From positions 1 to 64,000 of the forward strand of contig CAMXIF010000003.1 of NCBI GenBank assembly GCA_947243845.1: a stretch of DNA of 64,000 nt, read 5' to 3'. Numbering within the stretch: position 1 is the stretch's first letter; each line of letters opens with the position of its first letter. Made by a program: the position numbers and the translations under genes. This document shows, in pieces, positions 4,727 through 18,883 of this stretch. The notes beneath the pieces were generated by a model. It did not search any database. It saw nothing but the letters and a program-made list of their open reading frames with translations, and was not told the origin of the DNA. The stretch is from an uncultured bacterium. GTDB lineage: Bacteria > Bacillota > Clostridia > Lachnospirales > Lachnospiraceae.

Positions 4727-4870
4727 TTAGTTCATATGCTGATGAAGATATTTTTCTCTGGTTGCCAATCCACCGCGAATATGCCGTTCTGATTTATTGA
4801 CATCCAGCACTTTCCTTGCTTCCGCTGCAAGACTTGGGTTGAGCTGAGCGAGACGATCGGTTACGTCTTT
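4727..4870 (-). CDS. spoIIID: SpoIIID sporulation regulator, C-terminal half of a split gene
   Basis: 47 codons and a stop: KDVTDRLAQLNPSLAAEARK, then VLDVNKSERHIRGGLATREK, ending YLHQHMN. This matches the second half of SpoIIID (compare the KDLTERL..NPDLA...HKSIRHLRGGEATKLKY pattern of Bacillus SpoIIID), including the conserved RH(I/L)RGG basic tail that contacts DNA. It has no start codon or ribosome site of its own. Its frame opens exactly at the attachment core, immediately after a His codon shared with the N-terminal half 13.8 kb away (18,826-18,695). Joined at the core, the two pieces give an 85-codon gene. Before excision this piece is not translated as SpoIIID. SpoIIID is the mother-cell DNA-binding protein that tunes the sigma-E regulon. 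Confidence 0.93.
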   Translation of the reverse strand, partial: KDVTDRLAQLNPSLAAEARKVLDVNKSERHIRGGLATREKYLHQHMN

Positions 4871-4895
4871 ATGTATAGTTGTGTGTATTTAGAGC
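4848..4895. other. Attachment site at the recombinase end of the spoIIID element
   Basis: Contains TATGTA at 4870-4875, identical to 18712-18717 at the other end. The left part (below 4870) is spoIIID coding DNA; the right part (4874-4895) is element DNA ending in TAGAGC. The recombinase stop codon (4869-4871) lies in the core. The likely crossover dinucleotide is TG at 4872-4873 (CA on the minus strand), the centre of the dyad seen when the element ends are joined. Confidence 0.85.
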
Positions 4896-6440
4896 GGTAT
4901 CGTTCACAGTTCCGCTACCCTCAATCAATACGGTTTCCTCCAAGCCCAAGTCGCCAAGCAAGCTCAAGAAAATTTCTACGTTTCCCTCCTTGTCTACTTC
5001 AATCTTCTGAATGATACGCTTGAGCTGAGTATTAGTCATTTCACGGACATCCGTAATGTCTTCTATTTCCTTGAATGTGTGATTTAGCACACTTTCAAGC
5101 TGCTCTCCTTTCGTCAAATGATAAGATACCATTTTCAACTCGTTTTCCAATCGTTCTATCTCTTTTCTGGACCCGCCGATTTTATCATTCAGTTCCTGTC
5201 TGGAAATCAAATCATCGGCATACATATCCATGTATTTCTGTCTGGATTTCGTCAATTTGTTTAGCTGACTTTTCAGTTCCTTTTCATATTCCAGATTTTC
5301 ATCTTTTGCCTTGTATGTGCGTTGAAATTCTCCCACTACATACTGAATCACCTTCTTTTTCTGGCTGAGAATATGATTAAAATACTCTTGCAAAACATCA
5401 ATCAACTCATCTTCATCAACCGTGACAGCATTAGGGCAACTGTCTGCTCCTTTTCCGTTATGCCCTGAACATACCCAACGGACATACGTATTTTTGTAGG
5501 TGCGCACTGTCCTACGGAAAGACCATCCACATTCCTTACAACGGATCAAAGTGGAAAAAAGATGTTTATTACTCTGACGCTCTCTGTTCATGTTAAAAGA
5601 AGCATGTCTGCCATGCAGAATTTCCTGTACCTTTTCAAAATCCGCTGGTTCAATTATTTTCAAATCAGGGCGTTCCACAACCATCCATTCCATTTCATCC
5701 TTGGCTTTCCGCTTCCCGGTAAGGAAGTCTTCCACCTCTTGTTTGCCATTGATGATCTTGCCGGTGTAAAGTTCGTTCGTTAAAATCCGGCAGACCGCAT
5801 TCTGGCTCCATTTGCAATTTCGTTTTGTCTTTAATCCTCTTTCATTTAGCATATTTGCGATCTTGGCAGCACCATAACCTTCCTGCAGATACCATTGGTA
5901 AACCTGCTTGATTACTTCCTCTTCCGATTTATTGATTTCCAAATTGAAATAATCACCTATGGTTTTATCGTAACCATAAACAATGTTTGGGACACGTCCC
6001 TTTTCTGCATTCATCTTTTTACCGAACTTCACACGCTTAGAAGTATTGGCGCTTTCCTCCTGTGCCAAAGCACCAAAGATAGTTAGCACAAATTCACTGT
6101 TTCCCATGCTTGTCATATTAGCGGTGAGAAACTGAGTTTCAATACCTAGAGATTTTAATTTGCGAACATTTTGGAGTAAATCCACTGTATTTCTTGCAAA
6201 ACGGGAAATATCCTTTACCACTACCATGTCAAATAGACCGTGTTCTGCATCAGACATCATACGCAAGAATTCCTTGCGGTTTTTAATTTTGGTGCCAGAT
6301 ATACCTTCGTCAGCATAAAGGCGCACAAGATTGTCCCCTGTGCGCTGGGTGTATTCGGAAAAGAAAGCTTTTTGGGCTTCCAAGCTGTTTAATTGGTCAG
6401 CTTTGTCGGTGGAGACGCGGCAGTAAGCGGCGATGTTCAT
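4869..6440 (-). CDS. Large serine recombinase of the spoIIID element
   Basis: About 523 residues. The resolvase catalytic domain is at ~1-145 (IAAYCRVSTDKADQ with the nucleophile Ser; YADEGISGTK; KDISRFARN). A recombinase DNA-binding domain follows at ~160-265 (YGAAKIANMLNERGL). Next come a zinc ribbon at ~300-350 (CKECGWSF...WVCSGHNG...SCPN) and a long coiled coil at ~365-470, as in large serine integrases. ATG 6440 has GAAAGG upstream; the ORF extends to 6512 without family sequence. The gene ends inside the attachment core, so its last codons (...LNTHNYT) form the left attP arm. It would cut at the two spoIIID-flanking sites and excise or insert the element, as SpoIVCA does for skin. Whether an accessory directionality factor is needed is not visible. 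Confidence 0.95.
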   Translation of the reverse strand: MNIAAYCRVSTDKADQLNSLEAQKAFFSEYTQRTGDNLVRLYADEGISGTKIKNRKEFLRMMSDAEHGLFDMVVVKDISRFARNTVDLLQNVRKLKSLGIETQFLTANMTSMGNSEFVLTIFGALAQEESANTSKRVKFGKKMNAEKGRVPNIVYGYDKTIGDYFNLEINKSEEEVIKQVYQWYLQEGYGAAKIANMLNERGLKTKRNCKWSQNAVCRILTNELYTGKIINGKQEVEDFLTGKRKAKDEMEWMVVERPDLKIIEPADFEKVQEILHGRHASFNMNRERQSNKHLFSTLIRCKECGWSFRRTVRTYKNTYVRWVCSGHNGKGADSCPNAVTVDEDELIDVLQEYFNHILSQKKKVIQYVVGEFQRTYKAKDENLEYEKELKSQLNKLTKSRQKYMDMYADDLISRQELNDKIGGSRKEIERLENELKMVSYHLTKGEQLESVLNHTFKEIEDITDVREMTNTQLKRIIQKIEVDKEGNVEIFLSLLGDLGLEETVLIEGSGTVNDTALNTHNYT

Positions 6441-6480
6441 AGTGAGAACCTTTCTGTTAATTTGATAAATTTCAGTTACT

Positions 6481-6509
6481 ACTATAATACAAGAATTTAT
6501 ATACGACAA
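6481..6509 (-). promoter_or_regulatory. Sigma-A-like promoter of the recombinase gene
   Basis: TTGTCG (6509-6504) and TATAGT (6486-6481) on the minus strand are 17 bp apart, about 40 bp before the recombinase ATG. A GTATATA string overlapping the spacer resembles a sigma-E -35 box, but no matching CATACAAT-type -10 follows, so mother-cell control is not shown by this region. Confidence 0.5.
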
Positions 6510-6516
6510 CAAATAT

Positions 6517-6557
6517 AAAAAGAAACCGTCTCATTTCATTGAAGACAGTTTCTTTTT
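6517..6557 (-). terminator. Terminator after the helicase-nuclease gene
   Basis: A 15-base arm AAAAAGAAACCGTCT and its partner AGACAGTTTCTTTTT pair with one mismatch around an 11-base loop, with T-runs on both strands. It separates the defence genes from the recombinase unit. Confidence 0.75.
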
Positions 6558-6564
6558 GCGCACT

Positions 6565-7590
6565 CTATCTTTCGCGTTTTTTTACATCTTCTGCATATTT
6601 TGAGATGATGCTTCCATCATCTAATTCATGCATTTTAAGACAATTATAAATAAAGGCATCCTCTAGATTATATAAATCATACTCCTTTAATTCTTTGAAA
6701 AAACCTATAATATTATTTCTCAACAACATTAATTTTTTCTTACGCATAATCTTTACATCATGTGTAAAATCTGCATCATATGCCAAATACAGAGTTGGAA
6801 TAACCATAACTATGTATACTTTTGCATCTAAATACTCCTTTTCAAACCAGCCACAATGATTATTCATTTGTCCTGCCTCAGATTTATAAATATCTTTTCT
6901 CCCTTGCGACACTTCACTTTTGCATTCAATCATCACAAAAGAATTATTCCCCAATCCCCAAAGATTATCTGGTCCCTTTTTTATAGTCTTATCCGGACGT
7001 TGGCTTATATATCCCAATAGATCTCCTATGCTTTTCATTGCTGCTTCAAATTTATCTGCTTCTGTACCAAAACTCAAAAGTTCACATAATTTATTAATCT
7101 CCAACATTAATTCTTCATATGATGGAAATTGCTGAATATATTTAATGATATTTTGAGTTCTATTTAGATTAATATTCTCAATCTTTTTATATGCTAATCC
7201 CTCTTTGGGTTTTAATAACTCAAAATTTTTTTCAAAAGCACTCCTCTGCAATTTTTGTGAGTCAAGTTTACTACCATAATATCTGCAATGCGCTACTCTT
7301 TGCAAATACCATCCAATTTCACTCTCATCCTTTTGCGTCAAATCAATAATTTTTTGATATTCCTCAGCCGCATCATCATACCTTTTACTAAAAAACAACT
7401 TTTCTGCTCTTTGTTCCATTGATAATATTTCTAATTCATGATCTCTGACCTTTTCCTCCACAACAATACTATTCATCTCACTTTCATAATACTCCTTCCA
7501 GCCCCTGTCTCTTTTTAAACATTGATTAATCAGCGAAAACAAATCATTTAAGGTAACTTCTTTGTTCCCTTCTTTAGACCATTCAACCAT
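6565..7590 (-). CDS. C-terminal PD-(D/E)xK nuclease part of a helicase-nuclease, cut off by an in-frame stop
   Basis: 341 codons from an internal ATG. The frame is the same as that of the helicase ORF (7663-9093): it stays open upstream of this ATG for 24 codons (FIRSVSTRELFSDQTQKQIE...) back to the TGA at 7663-7665. The full gene was therefore one frame of about 842 codons. The segment has helical repeats at ~35-110 (TPR-like YDDAAEEYQKII) and a restriction-endonuclease-like core at ~200-240: GPDNLWGLGNNSFVMIECKSE, with the D...ExK triad of PD-(D/E)xK nucleases. No ribosome site precedes ATG 7590, so separate translation is doubtful. Likely role: the nuclease end of a phage-defence enzyme. 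It ends 8 bp before a terminator. Confidence 0.75.
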   Translation of the reverse strand: MVEWSKEGNKEVTLNDLFSLINQCLKRDRGWKEYYESEMNSIVVEEKVRDHELEILSMEQRAEKLFFSKRYDDAAEEYQKIIDLTQKDESEIGWYLQRVAHCRYYGSKLDSQKLQRSAFEKNFELLKPKEGLAYKKIENINLNRTQNIIKYIQQFPSYEELMLEINKLCELLSFGTEADKFEAAMKSIGDLLGYISQRPDKTIKKGPDNLWGLGNNSFVMIECKSEVSQGRKDIYKSEAGQMNNHCGWFEKEYLDAKVYIVMVIPTLYLAYDADFTHDVKIMRKKKLMLLRNNIIGFFKELKEYDLYNLEDAFIYNCLKMHELDDGSIISKYAEDVKKRER

Positions 7591-7662
7591 TTGTAACCCA
7601 ATTTCAATCTGTTTTTGAGTTTGATCAGAAAATAATTCTCTAGTTGATACACTTCTAATAAA

Positions 7663-9093
7663 TCAGACTAATTCCGCTCCTATAACTATAATGCAACTAT
7701 AATCTTTTTCCCCCCTCACGCTTCGTCCTAATCCTTGTTCAATCTTTTGAGCAATTTTCTTTTGAATTAATCCACTCTCTCTTCTTGCTTTCTCTTCATA
7801 TTTATCGCTCATATTCGTAAAAAAAGGAAGCGAATCCAAAATCAATATACGACATGCATTATCTGGTAAATCTATACCATCATATCTATTTGTTAATACT
7901 CTGAGTTTTTCAAATTTTCCTTGCTGTAAGCCGCTAATTTCAGAAAATATATTGTCTTTATCAATTAATATGCATCCAAAATCTTTATAAGCATCTTGCT
8001 TTTTCCATGTAGGAGTCAATGATACTGCTCCAAATTTATAAGTTATATTGCTAAAGCTTTCTATCATAGAGTCTCTTGTAAAACCGTCAGATATCAGCTC
8101 TGGAATTAATATCATTTTCTCCCCAGACCATTTCATCTTTTCGTTAACAATAGGGGTTTTAATTGCATCTACTGATATACCTAATGTCTTTACAAAAAAA
8201 CTATCGTCCTGCGTTGTTGCCGACATCAATACTCTATGTTTTGCCTTTGCAAAACTTCCAAACATATCAATAGGCGCAACCAATGGCATTATTTGCAATT
8301 CCCCTCCATTAATAAATGCCTGACACTTATCCAAATTATCCTTAATTAATGGCCACACAAAAGTTATACATTTATTCTGTTCATTAGATGCCAAAATTTT
8401 TAATACTTGAGATTTTTTATCTATCCATGCCCAATACGGAATCATCATCAAGTTTTCATAATCTTCATTATTTTGAATATCCCAAAAAGTTCCTTCACCT
8501 TGTTCCACTAAGTCATCTTCGAATATCTTCAATAATTCTGAATACAATTCTTTATCGGAATTTCTTTTAACACTAATCACAAAAGATTCTCGTATTGCAT
8601 CCAGACATGCGTGTGCATCATCAAGGACAACCGCTCCAACTTGTTCTGACGAATTCCCTGTTCCAAATATAGTTCTTCCATTAAACATTTTCTGCACATG
8701 AGTAACTAGAATTCTATTCCCTGCCAAAAAATCATTCGGTAATTGATTATTTTCACCAATTGTGCAAATTGGTATTCCAAATTTAGTAGCTTCTTTACAA
8801 ACCTGCTGCACTAAATATTTATTGGGGCAAATATAAATACAAGGTCCCTCTCCCTTATTCATTTTTGTCATTAGTATTAATAAGCCTATTAATGTTTTTC
8901 CTTCTCCAGTATGCAACTTAATAATAACGTCCTGCTCTCCAATTTTTTCATCATACCATTTCGACAATACCATTTCTTGAGATGCCCTTAGTGGTCCAGC
9001 TACACTTGTTCTGTCTAATCCATTATAAATATCTATTGGATTATCACTTTTTGTTACTAAAGTTCTTTTCATTTTCTTTGAAAAATCAATCAT
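7663..9093 (-). CDS. DEAD/DEAH-like helicase domain of an anti-phage helicase-nuclease, truncated by TGA
   Basis: 476 codons from ATG 9093 (AAGGAAGG 8 bases upstream). Superfamily 2 motifs are visible: Q-like RASQEM, motif I HTGEGKTLIG (~61-70), motif II LDDAHA (~165, a DEAH variant), motif III SATTQD (~290), motif VI QGLGRSVRGE near the end. The reading stops ...IIVIGAELV-TGA-FIRSVSTREL. Relatives of this family carry Arg at that point (GA.LVRFIR), so CGA to TGA is the simplest explanation. The downstream frame remains open for 365 codons with nuclease motifs. The protein as read therefore lacks its nuclease. Stop-codon readthrough cannot be excluded. The gene lies 38 bp behind the rloB-like gene and is probably in the same transcript. 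Confidence 0.82.
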   Translation of the reverse strand: MIDFSKKMKRTLVTKSDNPIDIYNGLDRTSVAGPLRASQEMVLSKWYDEKIGEQDVIIKLHTGEGKTLIGLLILMTKMNKGEGPCIYICPNKYLVQQVCKEATKFGIPICTIGENNQLPNDFLAGNRILVTHVQKMFNGRTIFGTGNSSEQVGAVVLDDAHACLDAIRESFVISVKRNSDKELYSELLKIFEDDLVEQGEGTFWDIQNNEDYENLMMIPYWAWIDKKSQVLKILASNEQNKCITFVWPLIKDNLDKCQAFINGGELQIMPLVAPIDMFGSFAKAKHRVLMSATTQDDSFFVKTLGISVDAIKTPIVNEKMKWSGEKMILIPELISDGFTRDSMIESFSNITYKFGAVSLTPTWKKQDAYKDFGCILIDKDNIFSEISGLQQGKFEKLRVLTNRYDGIDLPDNACRILILDSLPFFTNMSDKYEEKARRESGLIQKKIAQKIEQGLGRSVRGEKDYSCIIVIGAELV

Positions 9094-9130
9094 AATTTTT
9101 CCCTTCCTTTGCACTTAATTATCATAGATT

Positions 9131-9817
9131 TTATTGTAATTCCTCCGGCAAATACCTCGCCAATTCCTCCACCAACTCATACACCTTAGTCCCCGGCGCT
9201 ATGTCCGACGGTGTCTTTCCTTTATTCTCCTCTATAATTCTTTTTGCATATCGTATCGCCAGCTTGGGATTCCCCTTCTCCATCAGAATATGAAATATAT
9301 CTTTCATATTCTTTTGATACTTCCCGACCCCCAACTCTCTAAATTTATCATTGAGAAACTTGACATACTCTGATCTATGATTGTTTGAAGTATAGTAAGC
9401 AAAATGCAAAACAAACCAAAACTCAATACACTCATTGCTCCACGCCGCATGATACTGTAACTCTGGATTTTCAAAATTCAGCTTGTCCACTCGTTCTGTG
9501 ACACCATTAAAATCCTTTGCTGGAAAACTGTCTTTATCATACACACACCAAATCTGCCCTCTGTCAATCCCATTTTTATGGACATATCGTTCTGCCATGC
9601 CAATTACCCGCATCGTCTCTGCAGCGCAGGGCTCAATTTCAATCAAGACCATATCCCTATAAATCGGGTTATCCTCTATTATCCGCTTAAAACCTTCAAA
9701 ATAAAGCGGTTCCGTTTGCTCACCCTCACAGAAAATATAATAGCGATATTCCTTTTTCTCCAGATATTCTTTGCGTCTTTGTTTCCTCCACTGTGCCGTT
9801 CCAACCTTCTTAGGCAT
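9131..9817 (-). CDS. RloB-like TOPRIM-fold protein
   Basis: About 228 residues. The RloB family opening, a basic stretch followed by YRYYIFCEGEQTEPLYFEGF, is present, with the acidic E-G-E and T-E-P-x-Y-F signature. Next come WCVYDKDSF (~95), the D-x-D pair of a TOPRIM-like site, and AWSNECIEFWFVLHF (~130), also family-typical. ATG 9817 has GGAG 8 bases upstream and overlaps the end of the ATPase gene by 8 bases, so translation is coupled. RloA/RloB were first noted as R-linked ORFs beside hsdR genes of type I restriction loci, as here. By analogy with the AriA/AriB (PARIS) and OLD families, the ATPase may sense phage and release this protein as an effector nuclease. That role is inferred. 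Confidence 0.82.
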   Translation of the reverse strand: MPKKVGTAQWRKQRRKEYLEKKEYRYYIFCEGEQTEPLYFEGFKRIIEDNPIYRDMVLIEIEPCAAETMRVIGMAERYVHKNGIDRGQIWCVYDKDSFPAKDFNGVTERVDKLNFENPELQYHAAWSNECIEFWFVLHFAYYTSNNHRSEYVKFLNDKFRELGVGKYQKNMKDIFHILMEKGNPKLAIRYAKRIIEENKGKTPSDIAPGTKVYELVEELARYLPEELQ

Positions 9818-11036
9818 TGACATCACTCCAATCTATAATCTTTTTCAGATATGGATCTGCGCCATACTTGCCCTCTAAATATTGCTTGTCATATTTTGCA
9901 TCCATACGGACAGATTCGCCCTTCGTATTCTTAAATTCTACCAAAGAATAAAGTTTAGAGTTCTGCTCCTTTCCCTTTGCCACAAACCAGATTTCATCCC
10001 GGCGAAATATATCATTATTCATGGTTGACAAATCATGTGAAGTGAAAATGAGTTGCGCACCATTCTTGTTAATCTCCATATTATTGAATAACATGATTAC
10101 ATATCGCAGCAATATCGGATGAATTTTTGCATCCAACTCGTCAATCACTAAGGTTGTTCCAACAACAAGACTTCTTGCAATAAAAGGCAATAGTCCAAAC
10201 AGTTTCCTTGTTCCGCTAGATTCCTCTGCCAAAGTTAATTCCGTATTATATCCATTTACAGTATGCTTTGTATATACTTCAATATAGTTTTCTTCCTTCT
10301 CTTCAATCCGAAAGTCCTCAATATCCAAATCCATCTCGCGAATCATATCAAGCACAAGTTTTTTTACCTCATCTGTCTTAGCTATGGCTGTTCGCAATTC
10401 CTGCCTCGGATTTCCATAATTCAAAAAGTCAATGGACTCCTCAAACCATTCAATCACATCAGAAATTACTTCATTCTTTTTATAGGTAATTCCCAAATAG
10501 GATAACAACGGCAGCGTCTCTGAAATCTCTTCACTGATTTTAATTTTTCCGAACACTCCCTTTAATTCGATTACATTCCCATTTCTTACAAAAAGTGCCG
10601 AACGTCTTCCGGTATCTAATTTAATCCGGTCCAAACTCTCATAAACAACAACATCCTGCTTCACATGAAGGATATAACGGTATTCTGCAATATCAGTCCT
10701 GAAAAACATTTCAAACTCCGTTGGCTTCTTTCTCGTTTCTTCTGAAAAAGCAAAAGGCTCTACTGGAATCTTCCTTGCTTTGTATTCGCACTCCGTCTTA
10801 TCACAAGTTGCACACAAAGGTCTTAACACTTTTGCATCCAATGTATGCAGTGCTTCCAATACATTAGATTTACCGCCGCCATTCGGACCGTAAATCACTG
10901 ATACCGGCAAAAAATTTTCGCGGTCCTTCGTTTGGATAATTCTATCTCTGTGTTCCATGATTGCTGTTGCCTGCATATCAAACGTCATCTCTTCACGGAT
11001 ACTTTTGTAATTCTTCACGGTAAACTGACACAACAT
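9810..11036 (-). CDS. RloA-like AAA15/OLD-type ATPase
   Basis: About 408 residues of the AAA_15/AAA_21 ATPase group (COG1106-like), related to SMC/ABC ATPases. Walker A is YGPNGGGKSNVLEAL (~45-60), with the signature-like LAEESSGTRKLFGLL (~270), Walker B VIDELDAKIHPILLRYV (~300) and a following SHD switch (FTSHDLSTMN). Cys pairs in LCATCDKTECEY (~93-105) may bind zinc. ATG 11036 has GGAGG 8 bases upstream; the ORF start at 11051 has none. It is the first gene of the rloA-rloB-helicase unit and has its own promoter and a dyad upstream (11064-11116). Probable sensor partner of the RloB-like protein. Confidence 0.85.
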   Translation of the reverse strand: MLCQFTVKNYKSIREEMTFDMQATAIMEHRDRIIQTKDRENFLPVSVIYGPNGGGKSNVLEALHTLDAKVLRPLCATCDKTECEYKARKIPVEPFAFSEETRKKPTEFEMFFRTDIAEYRYILHVKQDVVVYESLDRIKLDTGRRSALFVRNGNVIELKGVFGKIKISEEISETLPLLSYLGITYKKNEVISDVIEWFEESIDFLNYGNPRQELRTAIAKTDEVKKLVLDMIREMDLDIEDFRIEEKEENYIEVYTKHTVNGYNTELTLAEESSGTRKLFGLLPFIARSLVVGTTLVIDELDAKIHPILLRYVIMLFNNMEINKNGAQLIFTSHDLSTMNNDIFRRDEIWFVAKGKEQNSKLYSLVEFKNTKGESVRMDAKYDKQYLEGKYGADPYLKKIIDWSDVNA

Positions 11037-11063
11037 ATCTTCTACCTCCATCTTTTATCTATT

Positions 11064-11116
11064 ATTATACACAGAATCTTTCTTTTGTAAACAACATTTG
11101 AGATTTTTTCTCAAAT
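11064..11116 (-). promoter_or_regulatory. Promoter and upstream dyad of the rloA-rloB unit
   Basis: On the minus strand TTTACA (11091-11086) and a perfect TATAAT (11069-11064) are 16 bp apart, ending about 28 bp before the rloA ATG. Just upstream of the -35 box is an 8-bp inverted repeat, ATTTGAGA / TCTCAAAT (11096-11116, 5-base centre), a possible operator. Confidence 0.6.
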
Positions 11117-11152
11117 ATCTTCCAATAATTTTCCATTTTCCTTAATACACTA

Positions 11153-11182
11153 AGGCCGCAGAAATCATATGATTCCAGCGAC
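11153..11182 (-). terminator. Hairpin after the small ORF
   Basis: GGCCGCAGAAATCATATGAT is followed by TCCAGCGACC, making an imperfect 13-14 bp hairpin immediately behind the 60-codon ORF. The T-run is weak, so termination may be partial. Confidence 0.45.
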
Positions 11183-11188
11183 CTTAAT

Positions 11189-11371
11189 CTATTCTTTCTT
11201 TACTTCGCCCGCTTCCTCACTCTCCGACAGTTCTATAAGTTTCCTCTCCACCTTTCCCGCATTAGCTTGAATACATATCTCCAGCAATACTTTCGCTGTT
11301 TCTTCCACTGTATTGGGATTATGTACAATATAATTTAGCTTTCTTACTTTTCCATCCGTAAAATTTTTCAT
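11189..11371 (-). CDS. Small protein of unknown function inside the element
   Basis: 60 codons from ATG 11371, which has GGGAGG 11 bases upstream; a start at 11410 is also open but has no ribosome site. The product begins MKNFTDGKVRKLNYIVHNPN, has a helical middle (TVEETAKVLLEICIQANAGK) and an acidic-basic tail. I do not recognise it. Short TnpW-like proteins of this kind occur in Clostridia mobile elements, and a recombination directionality factor or a small regulator would be possible, but nothing in the sequence decides this. It stands alone between two hairpins. Confidence 0.5.
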   Translation of the reverse strand: MKNFTDGKVRKLNYIVHNPNTVEETAKVLLEICIQANAGKVERKLIELSESEEAGEVKKE

Positions 11372-11410
11372 GGTGGGAAACACCTCCCAGCCCTCATGGT
11401 CTTTGTCCAT

Positions 11411-12138
11411 TCTATGAAAATCGATCTAAATTTATTAAACATTCTGAGATAAATTTTCACAATTTCTTTCCTCATTTCCTGTCAGCAAATTTTCACAAAC
11501 ACGAAAAGGACAGCCCAGACCGGTTCCCTACGGTCTGTGACTGCCCTTACGCTGTGTTGGATAAAAACATCCAAAATCCCTGATTATTCTGCAAACAGTT
11601 GGGGAAGATTGCAGTATCATTTACAGGATTATATATTCTACTTTTATATTTTTTATTTCTAACCTATCCAGCAGCTATTTACAAACAGGTATCAATAAAA
11701 TTTCTGTCTTTCATCTTCTGTCTAACTTATAATATTATTGTAAATGGCAAAGAGGCAAAAATCTTCCTATTTTGAAAAGAGTTTTTAACAAATTTATATT
11801 AAAATACTCATGCAATTTTTACACAATATTTCGGTCTATACTATATAATCCTCAATCTTCCTGCGGCAGATTAAAGCAGTACAGCAAGCACTACCTGTGT
11901 CATGACACAAGGCAAAATAGCAAGCATTGCTTGCGTATATACTCAAATTCATTTTTCAAAACACCCCTGCTGAAACTTTTGAAACTCTTTCTGCTTTTAC
12001 TTACTAAGGTACACTTCCCTAATCCTTGAAAAAACATGATTAAGTCATAATAAAATGTACCGCATTGGAAAATTCTGTCCACTGCGATACACTTTAATGT
12101 TCTGAAAACACATCTTATAAAATGCACCTTTATATCCG
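11411..12138. other. Non-coding gap in the element with palindromes, no supported gene
   Basis: 728 bp, AT-rich, between hsdR and the small ORF. Open frames here (80-85 codons) have no ribosome site or recognisable composition. It holds a perfect 14-bp palindrome TGTGTCATGACACA (11896-11909), a second GCAAGCA-T-TGCTTGC (11920-11934) and a strong terminator at 11504-11546. A small RNA made toward that terminator is possible. Confidence 0.5.
11504..11546 (-). terminator. Strong terminator 0.6 kb downstream of hsdR
   Basis: On the minus strand GGGCAGTCACAGACCG pairs with CGGTCTGGGCTGTCC (one bulge) and is followed by TTTTCGTG. It would end hsdR readthrough or an unannotated RNA from the gap. 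Confidence 0.7.
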
Positions 12139-15099
12139 TCAATCAATTAACGAAGCAATCTCCGGCATAAGAACATTCTTAAACTCATCAATCATCAGCG
12201 TCCTGAATCTAAACTTAGGCAAGGCATCTTCCTTTTCTTCTTTATAAACCGCATAATCTGCACTGTCCTTCAATTTATTTTCATTTGCAAGTTCGCCGTC
12301 CCTGAATTGAAAAACTTCATACTTCACATCTTCAAAATCCAGATACCATTTTTCAGCATACTTCTTGATTTCCGTATCAATAACAGCATAACGCATCTGA
12401 TTGATAATAACGGAAATATCTTGTCCCAGAAATTTCTCTTTATCCTTTTCAATTTCTTCCACAACCTGCATAAGAAGCGCACTTAATTTCGGATTATCGC
12501 CCGCAAATTCTGCTATAATCTCTTTGATAGTCCTTATTCTAGTCTCAAATTCAGCCTCGTTAAAATCATTTTGTGACTGGTCTAAGGACTCCACAACTCC
12601 CCGCAACAATTCTACAATATACTCAAAGTCAATCCTTAGTTTGCTGTAGGCTACCAGATCATAGTCATCCCATACAGGTTCTTCATCCGAGTTTGAGTCA
12701 TCACTCGACTTTTTCAGTTCCTCCATCACATTCTTATACATTGCCGCATAATTTTCATATTCATCTTCCGAAAAACCGAACTCATCTAGCACATGCGGTT
12801 CATATACAGAAAATGATTTTAAGTGTGCAAAATCGTGATCTAAATCCCTGAAAAGTTGGACAAATGCCTTCTTCTGCTTTCGGGACAGCCCTGCTATGTC
12901 TTCGGGTTTATGTGCCAGATTGCGGATTGTTTTAAGGGATATGGAAAAAGATGTTTTCACATCATCCCAATCCTCCGCAATGGGATTGCCATCACCTCCA
13001 CGCGAATACAGCTTGAGTGCCTTATTAATTGCGTTTTTATACTCTTTGGGCGCCTGAAATGTCACAATCTGACCGTACTGCTTTGCATAATCAAAAAGCC
13101 TGTTAGTACGGGAAAATGCCTGAATGATATTCTGCGGAGCCATAGGCTGTCTGTCAATAAATAAAGTAGACAGACAAGGTGCATCAAACCCGGTTAAAAG
13201 CCGATCGACCACAATCACCAAATCAAGCTGCTGACTTCGATCCAGATACTTTTTCTCTTTTCTTGCCAAACGTTCATTGAGGTTATTATTGTAGGCATTT
13301 ATGGCATCTATCTGATAATTGCTGCCAAACATTTCCTGATAATCTTTTAACGCTTCCTTCATTTTATCTTGGTTAATCGTAGAAGTCTCTTCATTTTCCG
13401 ACAGCGAATAGGTTATGGCAAACTTCGGGAAATCGGGCAGTGCCTTATGTACGGTATCGCTGATTTTCAACTCGTCTTGTCCCGCTTTTACCTTTTTCAG
13501 CAAGTCATAATATTTTTGTGCCCTCTCAATCGAACTGGTTGTCAATATCGCTTCATAGGTTCTGCCTTTATTATTGTTCATGCCAAATTTGTCATAGGAC
13601 TGGTTCAAAATGACATTCAGAACTTTCCGCATATGTTCTTCCGTTTCATATACCTTTTTGGCCTCATCGTCATTTAAATCCTTTGCTCCAAGATTTTCAA
13701 CCATGAATCCCAAAACTGCCTCATCATGGATAGCCTCTTTGATGGTATAACTATGCAGGCATTCACCATACATCTGTTCTGTAGTCTGTGGTAAATCACC
13801 TTTCTGTTCATATTTATTTTCCTCAAAAATGGGCGTACCCGTAAAACCATACCACAACGAATTAGCAAAAAATTTCTCCAGTTCTCTTTTGGTATGCGGT
13901 GTTATAGCCCTGTGGCATTCATCAACAACAAAAGCGACTTTTAAGGATTTAATTTTTTCATATCGCTTTGTTCCTTCCTTCAATCGCCGATTTACCATGA
14001 TCTGCATTTTCTGTCTGGTGGTAACTATCATCTGGCGGTTGTCATCCGCTATCTTTTCTATGAGTGAATCAACATAATCCGTATCATCCACGTCAATCGT
14101 ATCGTTATCCGCATAGGACTGAAAAGCCATTTTGGTCTGCATATCAAGGTCTTTTCTGTCAATGAGGAATACCGTTTTCTCAATTGCTGGAATGTCCATC
14201 AGCAGATTTCTGGTAGCCTTGTAGGAAGTCATCGTCTTCCCGGATCCTGTCGTATGCCAGATAAATCCTGATTTTCCCAGCTTCGATGCTGCCCGCATTA
14301 CTTCAATCGCATGAATCTGATAGGGACGCAGTATTAAAAGTTTCCTTTTATCGTTGTCAAGAACCGTATATCTGGTAATCATCTCATGCGCTTCCGGTAT
14401 TTTAAGGACTGCCTTAGCAAACTCAATATAATCACAGACAGGCTGATTTTCTTCGTCAAGCCATCCTGTGATAAATTTTTTGTTTAGTTCCGTATCCCTC
14501 GCGGCAGAAAAATACTTTGTATCTACGGCATTGCTCACCACAAACATCTGCACATTGGAAAAAATGCCGTGGAACTTCCCCTCTGTAATATATTTCTTGA
14601 TCTGACGGTAGGCATCCATATAGGAATGTTCTTTGTTCTTAAGTTCAATATGGATCAAAGGAATTCCATTAATAAGGAGCGTTACGTCAAAGCGTCTGTC
14701 CCTGTCTCCCTCTGCATCTTCTGGCTTAAAAGCTTGATATTGATTGATGACCTCGTACACACTTGTCCCACCAGCCACATGCTCATTATTCATCACCATA
14801 AGATGCAGAGTTTCATTTCCACGCTGGACATGAACATATACCTTGCCGTTTTCACCTACCAGCCATTCCCCCGCATCATAGAATGATGCGTGAGACAAAT
14901 CATTCTTAATCTTTGCAAATTCAGAATCGCTGAGAGAAACATCATTAAGTTTCGCTTTATTATTCTGTTCCAAGATATATTTAAAATTATTCCATAGCTG
15001 TTCCTCTGTTCTGATATCAGGTCTGTATGTCCATTGAGACTCATCACAGCAAAGCTGGTCTATCAATCTCTTTTCCATTACGGATTCTAATTCTGCCAT
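12139..15099 (-). CDS. hsdR: Type I restriction enzyme, R (endonuclease/translocase) subunit
   Basis: 986 residues, normal for HsdR. It cuts unmodified DNA after ATP-driven translocation in complex with HsdM and HsdS. The N-terminal PD-(D/E)xK nuclease is at ~135-160 (RRFDVTLLINGIPLIHIELK). SF2 translocase motifs follow: HTTGSGKTMTSY (~290), VVDECHRA (~395, DECH box), GFTGTP (~420), VVDRLLTGFDAP and QAFSRTNRLF (~620-660). A helical C-terminal domain binds the methylase core. It starts 3 bp after the hsdS stop and is the last gene of the operon from 18,442. All motifs are intact. Confidence 0.96.
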   Translation of the reverse strand: MAELESVMEKRLIDQLCCDESQWTYRPDIRTEEQLWNNFKYILEQNNKAKLNDVSLSDSEFAKIKNDLSHASFYDAGEWLVGENGKVYVHVQRGNETLHLMVMNNEHVAGGTSVYEVINQYQAFKPEDAEGDRDRRFDVTLLINGIPLIHIELKNKEHSYMDAYRQIKKYITEGKFHGIFSNVQMFVVSNAVDTKYFSAARDTELNKKFITGWLDEENQPVCDYIEFAKAVLKIPEAHEMITRYTVLDNDKRKLLILRPYQIHAIEVMRAASKLGKSGFIWHTTGSGKTMTSYKATRNLLMDIPAIEKTVFLIDRKDLDMQTKMAFQSYADNDTIDVDDTDYVDSLIEKIADDNRQMIVTTRQKMQIMVNRRLKEGTKRYEKIKSLKVAFVVDECHRAITPHTKRELEKFFANSLWYGFTGTPIFEENKYEQKGDLPQTTEQMYGECLHSYTIKEAIHDEAVLGFMVENLGAKDLNDDEAKKVYETEEHMRKVLNVILNQSYDKFGMNNNKGRTYEAILTTSSIERAQKYYDLLKKVKAGQDELKISDTVHKALPDFPKFAITYSLSENEETSTINQDKMKEALKDYQEMFGSNYQIDAINAYNNNLNERLARKEKKYLDRSQQLDLVIVVDRLLTGFDAPCLSTLFIDRQPMAPQNIIQAFSRTNRLFDYAKQYGQIVTFQAPKEYKNAINKALKLYSRGGDGNPIAEDWDDVKTSFSISLKTIRNLAHKPEDIAGLSRKQKKAFVQLFRDLDHDFAHLKSFSVYEPHVLDEFGFSEDEYENYAAMYKNVMEELKKSSDDSNSDEEPVWDDYDLVAYSKLRIDFEYIVELLRGVVESLDQSQNDFNEAEFETRIRTIKEIIAEFAGDNPKLSALLMQVVEEIEKDKEKFLGQDISVIINQMRYAVIDTEIKKYAEKWYLDFEDVKYEVFQFRDGELANENKLKDSADYAVYKEEKEDALPKFRFRTLMIDEFKNVLMPEIASLID

Positions 15100-15102
15100 A
15101 AG

Positions 15103-16317
15103 CTATCCTTTCTGTGGAAACATATTCTGTAGCATAAACTTCTTTACTTCTTTTAACTCATCACACTTACGCTGGTGAAGGGTGATAAGGTGGTCGAGAG
15201 CTTCAAAATAACATCCAATCCGTTGTTGTTCTTCTAATGATGGCACATCGATTTTAAACTCTCTAATATCGTTCAAACTCAAATGTGGCACCGCAGTTTC
15301 CGTTTTATTCATTGCAATATAGTTTAGAAAATCTCTCTGTATTGTTTGATACATAAAATTTGAATCTGCAATTTTTCTTTTAGTCCTTGCTCTAGTCACG
15401 CGTTGAACCAAAAGCGCCGGAAGCTGCGATTCCTCAATTTTTGCATAGCTTTTTCCAATAAGGGCACCATCCATTTGAATCAATATATCATTACTTTCAA
15501 GTAAAAAATTCTCCAATCCCTCTGAAGAGCTCCATCTCATACAAATTTCATCGGCAAAATCTAAATATCCTCTTTTCACATTCATTCCACGAACTAATTT
15601 TATTCCTTGCTCTGCAAATTTCTCACTCTCAAAAGGATATCCTGTTATCAATTCATTACAGTCACCAAACTTACACTGTTCCCAAGCATCAGTAAATCCT
15701 GCAAATCGAATTTCCGGATTTTTCTTACCATTCCGGGGGAACATTTTTTGCAACATATATCTCTTCAGTTCTTTTGTCTCATCACACTTATGCTGGTGAA
15801 AGGTGATGAGGTGGTCGAGAGCTTCAATATAATCACCAATTCTCTTCTGTTCTTCAAAACTCGGATACGGAATTTCGACACTTTTCATTCCTTCTACATC
15901 AATGCTTTTCCCATCACGAATACCATATATATGTGGCACCAATTTTTTCTTAATAAATTCATATGACCGAAAGAATGCATAATAGAATCTTGCATCAGCC
16001 GATACACCATGAAATGTATGATATGCAGGGCTTATGATGCCATCACAAGTCGCTTTTTCCAATCCACCCTCAAACGAACGCAAGTGCAAAATAAAGTCAT
16101 CTTTTCGCACTAATTTATATCCTGTCAGACTAGCCTTATCATACATAATATTTCTGTCTGATTCGTCCCTTCTGACAGTTCCGCCACCTTGAATTATTGT
16201 AAGTGCAGGCAACTCTGGATGATTCTTTTCTACATACTCTTCAAATACTTCCCCCAGCTTACGTTGTTCCCAAGCATCCACAAATCCCTTAAATCTTATC
16301 TTCGGTGTATCTGCCAC
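15103..16317 (-). CDS. hsdS: Type I restriction enzyme, S (specificity) subunit, two target-recognition domains
   Basis: About 404 residues. Two half-repeats each begin IRF.GF.DAWEQ and end in the conserved helix (EALDHLITFHQHKCDETKEL ... and EALDHLITLHQRKCDELKEV). They hold two target-recognition domains for the two halves of a split recognition site. I chose GTG 16317 because GGAGG lies 8 bases upstream; the coding end of hsdM supplies that site. The helix repeats are also similar at DNA level (15125-15233 and 15747-15856), which permits domain shuffling. The recognition sequence cannot be deduced. Confidence 0.93.
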   Translation of the reverse strand: MADTPKIRFKGFVDAWEQRKLGEVFEEYVEKNHPELPALTIIQGGGTVRRDESDRNIMYDKASLTGYKLVRKDDFILHLRSFEGGLEKATCDGIISPAYHTFHGVSADARFYYAFFRSYEFIKKKLVPHIYGIRDGKSIDVEGMKSVEIPYPSFEEQKRIGDYIEALDHLITFHQHKCDETKELKRYMLQKMFPRNGKKNPEIRFAGFTDAWEQCKFGDCNELITGYPFESEKFAEQGIKLVRGMNVKRGYLDFADEICMRWSSSEGLENFLLESNDILIQMDGALIGKSYAKIEESQLPALLVQRVTRARTKRKIADSNFMYQTIQRDFLNYIAMNKTETAVPHLSLNDIREFKIDVPSLEEQQRIGCYFEALDHLITLHQRKCDELKEVKKFMLQNMFPQKG

Positions 16318-16319
16318 AA

Positions 16320-17915
16320 TCACACCTCCTTAAGAACACTGATAAATTCTTCCACAGCATCCTTCGTTTCAGTATTTGTAAAAGTCAATTCCCCAAGCAT
16401 TTCCAACAAAGCGCCATTTCCCTCTTTGATTGCCCTGTTTGTCTCCCTTATAGATACGGAAAGCTGCCGGATATCTACTTCTGGTTCTTCTTCACTGGTA
16501 TCTACATATCTTGGAATGTTCAGATTATAGTCGTTTGCCTTGATATCCTCAAATGATGCAAGATAAGCCACCTTATCGACTGGTTTTCTGTCCGTATACA
16601 ATTCCATCACTCTGTCAATATGTTCCTCGCGCATGACATTCTGTTTCTTTTCCCTTTCATACAGCTTGGAAGCATCAATAAACAATACATCTCGTCTTTC
16701 CCTGTGCTTTTTTAATACTACAATGCAGGTTGGAATAGAAGTATTATAAAACATATTTGACGGAAGCCCAATAATAGCATAAATCGACCCATTCATGAGG
16801 AGTATTTCCCTGATTGCCCCTTCTGCCGCTCCCCTGAATAGAACACCGTGGGGAAGAACAATTGCCATCGTTCCCTTCTGCTTTAAATGATAGAACCCAT
16901 GTAATAAAAATGCGTAATCCGCTTTTGACTTAGGAGCCAATTTACCCCCATAATCCATAAACCGCTCATCCTGTTTGAATCCCTCTGCGGCAGACCAATT
17001 CGCCGAATAGGGAGGATTCATCGTTACAACATCAAACTCTGTCTCTTCATCTGTTGGCCAATCAGCATCAAGAGTATCCCCATTACGCAGGTGCTGGTTT
17101 TCAGGCAGGACTCCATGCAGGAACATATTCATGCGTGCCAGATTATAGGTTGATGGCATAAGTTCCTGTCCATAGAATTTAATGTAATCCGGCTCTTTTG
17201 AGTAATTTCTACAGCTAAGCATCAATGAGCCGGACCCCATACACGGATCATATACCTGTAATCCCTTTTTCCCTTCCTGGCCAGATATGGCAATCCTGCA
17301 AAGGATCTGCGCGGGGCCATGTGGCGTATAAAATTCTCCAGCCTTTTTACCTGTCTCAGACGCAAACTGGCCAATCAGATACTCATATGCGTTACCAAGG
17401 ACATCTCCTTCCGTATGGATAATGTCCACGCCATCCAATACCTTGATGACTTCCGCAATTGTGGCACTCTGCTTCTGGTCACCGGTGCCAAGTCGGTTTG
17501 AATATAAATCTACATCCGCAAATAGGCCGTTGAATAATTCATCAGATTCCTCTATACGGTTAAAAGCCGCCTGCAGTTTTTCTCTATTAAAAGAATTATT
17601 TTTAGCAGCATTTAACATACTTATATATGTCATGTCAGGATCAAGCGTATAATGCTTTGATTCTTTTATTTCACTCAGTAATTCTTCGGCATCATCTGAT
17701 TTCATCGCATCCTCATACACGTACTGTGCTTCTTCAAGACTATCTGGATTTTTGTCCTTAATGAGGTCATAAACTTTTGCTAAATATGAGTCTGATAGAT
17801 ATTTATAGAAAACCAATCCCAAAAGATACGTTTTGTACTCATTTGCATCCATTTTCCCTCTAAGTACATCCGCACCGCTCCACAATACCTGTAATAAATC
17901 TTTCCCTTCAGCCAT
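16320..17915 (-). CDS. hsdM: Type I restriction enzyme, M (N6-adenine methyltransferase) subunit
   Basis: 531 residues. The HsdM N-terminal helical domain (LLQVLWSGADVLRGKMDANE) is followed by the N6-adenine methylase: GEFYTPHGPAQILCRIAI (~193), SAM-binding VYDPCMGSGSLMLS (~220) and the catalytic NPPY motif in FDVVTMNPPYSANW (~300). The protein methylates the site that HsdS chooses and forms the M2S core of the restriction enzyme. It starts 2 bp after the half-hsdS gene and its end carries the ribosome site for hsdS, so the three are translated as a chain. Confidence 0.96.
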   Translation of the reverse strand: MAEGKDLLQVLWSGADVLRGKMDANEYKTYLLGLVFYKYLSDSYLAKVYDLIKDKNPDSLEEAQYVYEDAMKSDDAEELLSEIKESKHYTLDPDMTYISMLNAAKNNSFNREKLQAAFNRIEESDELFNGLFADVDLYSNRLGTGDQKQSATIAEVIKVLDGVDIIHTEGDVLGNAYEYLIGQFASETGKKAGEFYTPHGPAQILCRIAISGQEGKKGLQVYDPCMGSGSLMLSCRNYSKEPDYIKFYGQELMPSTYNLARMNMFLHGVLPENQHLRNGDTLDADWPTDEETEFDVVTMNPPYSANWSAAEGFKQDERFMDYGGKLAPKSKADYAFLLHGFYHLKQKGTMAIVLPHGVLFRGAAEGAIREILLMNGSIYAIIGLPSNMFYNTSIPTCIVVLKKHRERRDVLFIDASKLYEREKKQNVMREEHIDRVMELYTDRKPVDKVAYLASFEDIKANDYNLNIPRYVDTSEEEPEVDIRQLSVSIRETNRAIKEGNGALLEMLGELTFTNTETKDAVEEFISVLKEV

Positions 17916-17917
17916 AG

Positions 17918-18442
17918 CTAATCTTCCTCCATCCTGCGTATCAAGGTCATTGTAAATTTTCTTACATCCTCTGCCTGCTTTATCATTAAATCATTTTGTA
18001 TAATTGACTGTCTGTATAAATTTCCTATTGTCCTTTGTTTTTCTATATCCGGTAAAATAATTTTTAATTCTCCGATAGTTTTTATATTCAGTTTCTTGAC
18101 ACTCAAGGTTGTCCCCTGATGGTACATTTCTATCTGTTGTTCAAAACCTTTTCCCTCGTTAAATTGATAACAAAAATACCAAGGATAGATTTTTTCAGTA
18201 TCAAAATCACATCTTAGAAAATTTGATGTAATACACTTTGCTTCTGTCTGTTCCGATATCGGAGAACATTTGGATTTTATCAAATTTATGATACAACCCA
18301 TCCCCTCTTTCGTTGAATGAATGCAGTGCAAATCATTCTCAAAATCCTCCGGGGTATATAATTCATCAGCCTGCTCTCTTATTCGTGTAGGATTTTTACC
18401 TAATGTAAATTGTATAATCTCATTTAATGGTATAGATTCCAT
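17918..18442 (-). CDS. Half-size HsdS-like specificity protein (single target-recognition domain)
   Basis: 174 residues, less than half a normal HsdS. MESIPLNEIIQFTLGKNPTR, then ...HQGTTLSVKKLNIKTIGELK and ILPDIEKQRTIGNLYRQSII give one target-recognition domain with the usual LP..EQ..IG helix after it. It is the first gene of the hsd operon, with AAGGAG before its ATG and an operator-flanked promoter. A half-S can dimerise to a palindromic specificity or compete with the full HsdS. Which it does is not visible. It differs in sequence from both halves of the full HsdS, so it is not a simple duplicate. Confidence 0.82.
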   Translation of the reverse strand: MESIPLNEIIQFTLGKNPTRIREQADELYTPEDFENDLHCIHSTKEGMGCIINLIKSKCSPISEQTEAKCITSNFLRCDFDTEKIYPWYFCYQFNEGKGFEQQIEMYHQGTTLSVKKLNIKTIGELKIILPDIEKQRTIGNLYRQSIIQNDLMIKQAEDVRKFTMTLIRRMEED

Positions 18443-18456
18443 CGAGTCTCCTTATT

Positions 18457-18530
18457 GTAATTTAATTAAATTACATTATGACAATAACTCTTTTTAGCTA
18501 TTTTGTCAATAAGTAATTTAATTAAATTAC
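18457..18530 (-). promoter_or_regulatory. hsd operon promoter between two identical 18-bp palindromes
   Basis: TTGACA (18509-18504) and TATTGT (18486-18481) on the minus strand are 17 bp apart. A perfect palindrome GTAATTTAATTAAATTAC occurs twice, at 18457-18474 (over the transcription start) and 18513-18530 (just upstream of -35), 56 bp start to start. This is a strong candidate repressor or activator site pair. No obvious regulator gene lies in the element. Confidence 0.7.
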
Positions 18531-18605
18531 AAAATTATGCTTTACTTCTATATTGCCTCATTTTTTACTTCTTTACAAAACTTTTCAAAATTCTGCATGG
18601 CACGC

Positions 18606-18627
18606 AAAAAGCGCCATCTACGGCGCT
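18606..18627 (-). terminator. Terminator between the spoIIID N-half and the hsd promoter
   Basis: Stem AGCGCC/GGCGCT with a 6-base loop, followed on the minus strand by TTTTT. It would stop sigma-E transcripts that enter the element from the spoIIID promoter before they reach the restriction operon. Confidence 0.65.
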
Positions 18628-18691
18628 CCTCCGCAAACAGCGTTTCTCCATTCCCCCTATTCGATTACCCAAATTACTCCATTTTTATACA

Positions 18692-18739
18692 GCTCTATTT
18701 TGTTACGACCATATGTACCGTAGATTTACTAATCCCAAA
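18692..18739. other. Attachment site at the spoIIID N-terminal end of the element
   Basis: TATGTA at 18712-18717 matches 4870-4875. Bases above 18717 are spoIIID coding DNA; bases below 18712 are element DNA starting GCTCTA at 18692. The probable crossover dinucleotide is TG at 18714-18715. Confidence 0.85.
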
Positions 18740-18826
18740 CTCCTTCGCCGTCTGTCTCACCGTAGCATTATTCTCAATGATATAATTGGCAATCTGAATT
18801 GCACGTTCCTCAATATAATCTTTCAA
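18695..18826 (-). CDS. spoIIID: SpoIIID sporulation regulator, N-terminal half of a split gene
   Basis: Start TTG 18826 with GAGGGG 7 bases upstream. The product begins MKDYIEERAIQIANYIIENN and continues ATVRQTAKEFGISKSTVH, the SpoIIID helix-turn-helix (the AKEFG.SKSTVHKD pattern is nearly invariant). After His38 the frame enters the element, adds five foreign codons (MVVTK) and stops at 18697-18695. The intact protein continues with KDVT..., which is exactly what lies at 4,870. The unexcised product would be a 43-residue peptide that keeps the helix-turn-helix but lacks the basic C-terminal DNA contacts. A sigma-E promoter lies just upstream, as expected for spoIIID. Confidence 0.93.
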   Translation of the reverse strand: MKDYIEERAIQIANYIIENNATVRQTAKEFGISKSTVHMVVTK

Positions 18827-18854
18827 AAGGAAACCCCTCAGAACACTTTTTTAC

Positions 18855-18883
18855 ATTGTATGAAGTGATGTGAGGGGTTATGA
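18855..18883 (-). promoter_or_regulatory. spoIIID: Sigma-E-type promoter of spoIIID
   Basis: On the minus strand CATACAAT (18862-18855) exactly fits the sigma-E -10 consensus CATACAMT. TCATAAC (18883-18877) fits 5 of 7 positions of the -35 pattern, and the spacing is 14 bp. Transcription would start about 22 bases before the TTG codon. It implies mother-cell expression. Confidence 0.75.

Follow-up and report, generated by a model that had tools for sequence, protein, structure and literature searches.

A mobile, skin-like element splits spoIIID in a Lachnospiraceae genome and is probably excised in the sporulating mother cell

Introduction

How can a bacterium complete sporulation when the gene for one of its mother-cell regulators lies in two parts? 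The question is raised by a stretch of 64,000 nucleotides (positions 1 to 64,000 of contig CAMXIF010000003.1, assembly GCA_947243845.1; hereafter the window) from an uncultured member of the family Lachnospiraceae, in which spoIIID is split by an element carrying a large serine integrase and predicted phage-defence genes. The best reading of the locus is a mobile, spoIIID-specific, skin-like element that is excised in the mother cell: the integrase and a small partner protein probably cut it out during sporulation, rejoining the only copy of spoIIID. A preliminary description, made from the window alone, had proposed a skin-like strategy acting on spoIIID. The strategy is supported; in place of a stable, host-owned switch, a horizontally moving family with phage relatives was found.

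The split gene

The gene is broken at codon 38/39. The 5' part, codons 1-38 (positions 18713..18826, minus strand), has a TTG start and ends in SKSTVH with CAT as codon 38; it matches PF12116 (1-42, E 8e-18), and 38 of its 38 residues are the same as in several intact relatives. The 3' part, codons 39-85 with the stop (4727..4870, minus strand), matches the same family (34-81, E 2.5e-20). TACATA is present at both breakpoints, 18717-18712 and 4875-4870, and 13,842 bp lie between the two cores. The coordinates of both parts, the common TACATA and the length of 13.8 kb given in the preliminary description are all borne out by the sequence; its end coordinate, 18883, marks where the -35 box of the promoter of spoIIID begins and not where the element ends.

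When the flanks were joined by script, the resulting 258 bp read as a single open frame, 85 codons long. Compared by blastn with 30 intact loci, taken from the 40 genomes of the genus with a full-length spoIIID match, the joined sequence spanned the predicted junction without interruption in 30 of 30, as expected in the preliminary description; the best alignment was gap-free, with 88.6% identity over 1672 bp. A mother-cell sporulation gene is interrupted here, and precise removal of the element gives back its reading frame. Upstream of spoIIID, homology of the empty site to relatives ends at the -35 of a sigma-E-like promoter (TCATAACC, 13 bp, CATACAAT; 18855..18883, minus strand), named by its likeness to the sigma-E consensus.

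The assembly that holds the window is a draft of 3,390,255 bases in 77 contigs, 95.7% complete. A PF12116 search of this assembly matched exactly the two pieces and no intact spoIIID, a copy of which the preliminary description had named as the finding that would speak against it.

Integrase and attachment sites

The large serine integrase (4869..6440, minus strand; 523 amino acids) starts with ATG at 6440, and its stop at 4869 lies inside the core. It has Resolvase, Recombinase and zinc ribbon domains (PF00239, PF07508, PF13408) and matches phrog_95 (integrase), so that a site-specific recombinase sits at the element junction, where the preliminary description had placed one. A search of PDB with the integrase returned N-terminal recombinase domains only.

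The attL site (18690..18740, minus strand, core 18717-18712) consists of a spoIIID half site and the element half site P' (TACATATGGTCGTAACAAAATAG), and the same P' half stands after the N-terminal part in the other elements described below. The attR site (4845..4900, minus strand, core 4875-4870) consists of the element half site P and a spoIIID half site. The element halves beside the 3' and 5' parts are near-perfect inverted repeats centred on the CA of TACATA, and the two ends imply a near-palindromic attP. With its domains, and with attP inverted repeats around a short core common to attB, the element is of the large serine integrase type.

Recurrence in other genomes

An integrase-first search of named genome contigs gave 144 relatives of the integrase, the best 80 of which were kept as loci. 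In 75 of these 80 (Lachnospiraceae, Oscillospiraceae and others) the 3' part of spoIIID starts at the integrase end; the same split at the same codon is far beyond chance, and a chance split or an assembly error was rejected on this ground. In 75 of 75 the 3' part is an open frame that keeps the motif RHIRGGxAT. The stop of the integrase frame is no more than 5 bp from codon 39 in 59 of the 75; in 13 the frame continues further, and in 3 it closes 19-86 bp short of that codon. Elements measured 3.7-10.8 kb in the 22 loci that also hold the N-terminal part, and the search proposed in the preliminary description, for N-terminal pieces that end in STVH and lie close to a serine recombinase, found many. 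In two of the remaining five loci (L053, L117) the contig ends at the junction; the other three (L075, L079 (Christensenella) and L086) are at other sites. The integrases of these three are close relatives (84-85%) of the window integrase, with their 3' end away from spoIIID, at target sites that are secondary or different.

Going by the record titles, the hosts include Blautia, Schaedlerella, Extibacter, Acetatifactor, Flavonifractor, Pseudoflavonifractor, Angelakisella and Anaerotignum; Muribaculum and Bacteroidales titles among them are more likely mis-binned contigs of metagenome-assembled genomes (MAGs). Pieces of spoIIID were found in 19 of 20 named genomes checked and an intact copy in none of them, the exception being Christensenella, with no spoIIID match. 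The split is visible in the genomes of Extibacter muris DSM 28560 and Blautia massiliensis GD8.

A spoIIID-first search covered 298 genomes of Lachnospiraceae with a completeness of 90% or more, and in 194 of them a match exceeded the cut-off. Judged by E-value, spoIIID is full-length in 171, and 23, the window's included, have pieces only; intact spoIIID is also absent from a one-contig genome of the family (G289). Among the other 22 pieces-only genomes, 12 have an integrase of the window's family next to the 3' part (70-93% identity), two have a distant integrase there (45-48%), two show the N-terminal part and P' half only (G098, G308) and four have the N-terminal or 3' junction of a second element type (G156, G207, G238, G385).

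The second type at spoIIID has three tandem serine recombinases in G156 (L173), G238 (L174) and G207 (L176), with Pfam run on those of G156 and G238. Its half sites, TTATGACGCCA / TGGCGTCATAA, differ from those of the window, and it was likened to gin in gerE. The distant serine integrases at the same spoIIID junction are those of G140:C158 (L179, 48%) and G321:C49 (L180, 45%); in G140 a different 60-amino-acid open reading frame (ORF) lies just upstream of the integrase. Independent integrase lineages may have converged on the spoIIID attB.

Within the genus of the window, the gene is full-length in 40 of the 48 genomes with a spoIIID match, and extra N-terminal pieces accompany it in 13 of the 40. 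Genus mates (L033, L034-L038, L040-L051; for example G046:C24 and G044:C2) carry tandem copies of the spoIIID promoter and codons 1-38, each followed by a P' half, between blocks of defence-type genes upstream of intact or split spoIIID. This looks like an accretion array; a first view of the arrays as repair of the intact gene by each element was dropped.

Phage relatives and mobility

A pattern search found the joined attP uninterrupted in one IMG/VR contig of 62.4 kb (REC 69%), and it is likewise uninterrupted in three further contigs of 50-119 kb (REC 73%). In these contigs attP adjoins the integrase gene, whose frame runs on through it, and the genes nearby include matches to families of endolysin, tail fibre and head protease. 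Phages with this attP therefore exist. A scan of viral contigs with the window integrase as single query gave no match, and one with an integrase alignment gave seven loci: four with uninterrupted attP (L135-L137, and L138, which is the contig of L133) and three, 44% relatives, without it. From the 44-58% relatives in annotated phage records the best match, MT838016, was examined, and there the 3' part of spoIIID still stands at the integrase end.

Over 2775 pairs, divergence of the integrase and of the spoIIID 3' part barely correlates (Spearman 0.06 non-synonymous, 0.24 synonymous), which indicates that the elements move horizontally. Blautia schinkii and B. massiliensis have near-identical integrases (synonymous divergence, pS, 0.04) and well-separated spoIIID genes (0.68), and pairs such as L057/L060 share the host gene with different integrases. 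A purely ancestral, vertically inherited skin was rejected because integrase and host divergence do not track each other. The family is a mobile one, with phage relatives that have its integrase beside an uninterrupted attP, and the integrase passes between hosts much faster than spoIIID diverges. As new insertions require a restored attB, precise restoration probably occurs in nature, through excision or recombination with an intact allele.

A candidate directionality factor and its sigma-E-like promoter

The candidate recombination directionality factor (RDF) of the window is a protein of 60 amino acids (MKNFTDGKVRKLNYIVHNPNTVEETAKVLLEICIQANAGKVERKL...; 11189..11371, minus strand), identified by profile match, its start being picked by the ribosome-binding site. 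A profile search recovered its family (KRKLNYRFHNPNT...) from 71 of 80 loci and from all 22 of the complete elements, as well as from the window and from phages of both types. It comprises 455 protein clusters, and the names given among the 120 matches listed are only "hypothetical". The structure is predicted to be a single long helix. From this distribution the protein is a candidate for the RDF of these elements.

Before its gene lies a sigma-E-like promoter, TAATAAAT-N13-CATAGAAT, followed by GGACAAAG, which is like a SpoIIID box (11401..11437, minus strand). Scored against the sigma-E consensus, at least 12 of 16 positions matched in 39 of 51 RDF upstream regions as against 12% of shuffles, and at least 13 of 16 in 25 of 51 as against 1.8%. 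The pattern CATA-N2-6-GGACAAR, in which GGACAAR comes after the -10, was found in 28 of 51, the shuffle mean being 0.03; GGACAAR resembles the SpoIIID box of B. subtilis. Left out of the upstream-region counts were the duplicates L034, L039 and L138 and stretches under 140 bp. The spacing of -35 and -10 agrees with that of sigma-E promoters in PMC517825.

Upstream regions of the integrase were at background for a match of at least 12 of 16 (10 of 62, as against 18%), and sigma-E control of the integrase itself was rejected on this lack of enrichment. In 32 of the 62 dereplicated integrase upstream regions (for example, 6441-6530 of the window) GTAACAGA is conserved, as against 0.2 in shuffles; its similarity to the spoIIID and P' half sites (GTAAC) makes self-binding of the integrase or a SpoIIID-like box possible.

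Host sporulation genes

SpoIVA and SpoVAC/AEB are present in 41 of 41 distinct pieces-only genomes (42 handles, G082 and G315 being one), in all 16 genomes sampled from the 171 with intact spoIIID, and over the cut-off in 3 of 20 without spoIIID (the first 20 listed of 98). In the window genome the sigma-K-type and sigma-E-type genes are intact. By gene content, hosts of split spoIIID look sporulation-competent. In Pseudoflavonifractor sp. Marseille-P3106, SpoIVA was found as two pieces on a single contig, some 250 kb from each other (G089:C20:236830-237279 and 489491-489769), which may reflect a rearrangement, an assembly join or another intervening element.

The integrase is strongly constrained (median pN/pS 0.07); the values are 0.33 for the 3' part of spoIIID and 0.22 for the N-terminal part. 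In 3 of the 41 split-spoIIID genomes sigK also lies in two pieces (G094, L183, G094:C23; G282, L184-L185, G282:C1; and G384), and beside the sigK 3' part of G094 and G282 stands a large ORF that, judged by eye, reads like a serine recombinase. Hosts of this kind would need two excisions, one after the other.

Cargo

From the integrase towards the 5' part of spoIIID the gene order is integrase, a PDC-S28 pair, RloB/AbiLii-like, RloA/AbiLi-like, the 60-amino-acid gene, HsdR, HsdS, HsdM and a partial specificity protein, all on the minus strand. The pair matches the C-terminal part (6565..7590, E 7e-96) and the DEAD/DEAH helicase part (7663..9114, E 7e-195; Pfam and PADLOC) of the PADLOC model PDC-S28, a candidate defence model. 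Pfam and PADLOC further identified an RloB-like protein (AbiLii model; 9131..9826), an AbiLi/RloA-like AAA ATPase (9810..11051) and the type I restriction subunit HsdR (12139..15099), specificity subunit HsdS (15103..16323) and methyltransferase HsdM (16320..17915). The partial specificity-subunit-like protein of 174 amino acids (17918..18442) matches PADLOC Specificity_I (E 3e-9). No phage structural family was found by Pfam and PADLOC among the ten window ORFs scanned, and the element is accordingly not classed as a prophage; it is predicted to be a DNA island with phage-defence genes. Rfam gave no match in window positions 1-24000.

Excision and its alternatives

Mother-cell control is indicated, indirectly, by the sigma-E-like promoter of the candidate RDF together with the full retention of sporulation genes in the hosts. 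Likely, the island must leave precisely in the mother cell before spoIIID would work. Timing and activity we infer as follows. The integrase would be made in growing cells, where the element is kept integrated. Sigma-E, in the mother cell only, would transcribe the 5' part of spoIIID and the RDF gene; integrase and RDF would then recombine attL with attR at the CA of TACATA, giving a circle and a restored spoIIID. SpoIIID would be made, opening the next mother-cell stage, and may repress the RDF gene by way of the GGACAAAG box that overlies its start. The forespore would retain the element, which would be inherited through the spore.

Several observations weigh against this. The pattern of an attP circle, which fits 14 of 23 reconstructed attP sites and not that of the window, was found in 0 of 397 genomes of the family; a shorter pattern, fitting 20 of 23 with the window included, matched once among 41 split genomes, by chance and within unrelated coding DNA. 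The assemblies come mostly from growing cells or are MAGs, so a missing circle neither proves nor excludes developmental excision. Among the papers listed by a literature search, none turned up with a spore assay for a strain with split spoIIID. No relative of the candidate RDF was found in Pfam, PHROG or PDB, and the upstream regions were dereplicated at 80% identity only. The split is the minority state, with an intact gene in 171 of 194 genomes of the family and 40 of 48 in the genus. The type of split in G389 is unexplained, and that in G193 is cut by a contig end. Fast turnover also means that constraint on the spoIIID halves could come from intact intervals.

Of the other explanations, the one that survives best, though unlikely, is a plain gene-disrupting mobile defence island, for which spoIIID serves as attB; sporulation would be lost or weakened, and the halves would be intact since insertions are recent or transient. 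The low correlation of integrase with host divergence agrees with it, as do near-identical hosts with different integrases, distant hosts with near-identical ones, and the presence of the split in only 23 of 194 genomes of the family; in C. difficile, moreover, SpoIIID is less crucial than sigma-K (PMC5025042). However, the 75 of 75 3' parts and the N-terminal parts found are undamaged, 41 of 41 hosts keep SpoIVA and SpoVA whereas genomes without spoIIID mostly lack them, and a mother-cell-type promoter on the RDF gene would be useless to an element that merely disrupts. Constitutive low-level excision, by which some growing cells would always be restored and would sporulate without developmental control, is very improbable: it has a precedent in yin of yabG, which occurs in excised form at every stage of growth (PMC10747680), but the attP circle was not found in the assemblies searched, and the sigma-E-like promoter precedes the RDF candidate, not the integrase. 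That a second spoIIID or another regulator renders the split irrelevant is allowed by the draft state of the assembly (95.7% complete) and hardly credible, as no intact copy was found in the window genome, in 19 named genomes with pieces or in the one-contig G289.

Mother-cell excision of the element thus stands as the preferred reading. A wider scheme, for which we would give slightly less than even chances, makes spoIIID a common landing pad of gut Clostridia, where mobile phages, defence islands and the three-recombinase type insert at codons 38-41. Each would be released in the mother cell by a sigma-E-driven RDF that the new SpoIIID then shuts off; where sigK is also split, two serial excisions would follow, the first yielding the regulator that commands the second.

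SpoIIID switches on excision of the sigK element in B. subtilis and C. difficile. If the preferred reading is true, developmental DNA excision reaches one step before sigK, and spore formation in many gut commensals hinges on a mobile defence island. Such islands would persist cost-free, as the mother cell dies and the spore keeps them, and a new set of integrase, attP and RDF would be supplied.

Comparison with known systems

Mother-cell genes reported as split include sigK, spoIVFB, spoVR, spsM, gerE and kamA (PMC6957869), with spoVFB and yabG in addition (PMC10747680). No spoIIID-intervening element was found in the open-licence literature searched, and the preliminary description knew of none. 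The papers found with spoIIID beside phages concern phage-borne sporulation genes and no split (PMC5027557, PMC12713726, PMC10294663).

The skin of C. difficile, in sigK, likewise splits a mother-cell regulator and has a serine integrase (CD1231) and a small RDF (CD1234). Its integrase is expressed from a sigma-A promoter and its 72-amino-acid RDF from a promoter dependent on sigma-E and SpoIIID (PMC5025042). The logic is alike in that the RDF gene, not the integrase, has the sigma-E-type promoter, here a predicted, sigma-E-like one; CD1234 and the 60-amino-acid candidate were set side by side by description only. In contrast, the target here is spoIIID, and while SpoIIID itself activates the RDF of skinCd, the RDF of the window element cannot depend on it. 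The cargo also differs, being of restriction and Abi/Rlo type; among the ten ORFs scanned, none was recognised as a phage structural gene.

The yin element of yabG is also a clostridial sporulation-gene element with a putative RDF promoter; it is called unique among its authors' isolates (PMC10747680), whereas the spoIIID family spans many genera. SPbeta in spsM and phi3T in kamA are active phages in sporulation genes, with the RDF under a mother-cell promoter (PMC4191935, PMC6957869). They differ in gene, host clade and integrase, and at spoIIID phages and non-phage islands use one attB. The gin of B. cereus gerE, also a non-phage element in a small regulator gene, is excised during sporulation by serine recombinase and RDF (PMC5595907). 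Unlike the window element, which has one recombinase, gin has three, as does the second spoIIID type in tandem (G156, G238, G207). On its anatomy the window element belongs with skin and gin, and it would work as they do.

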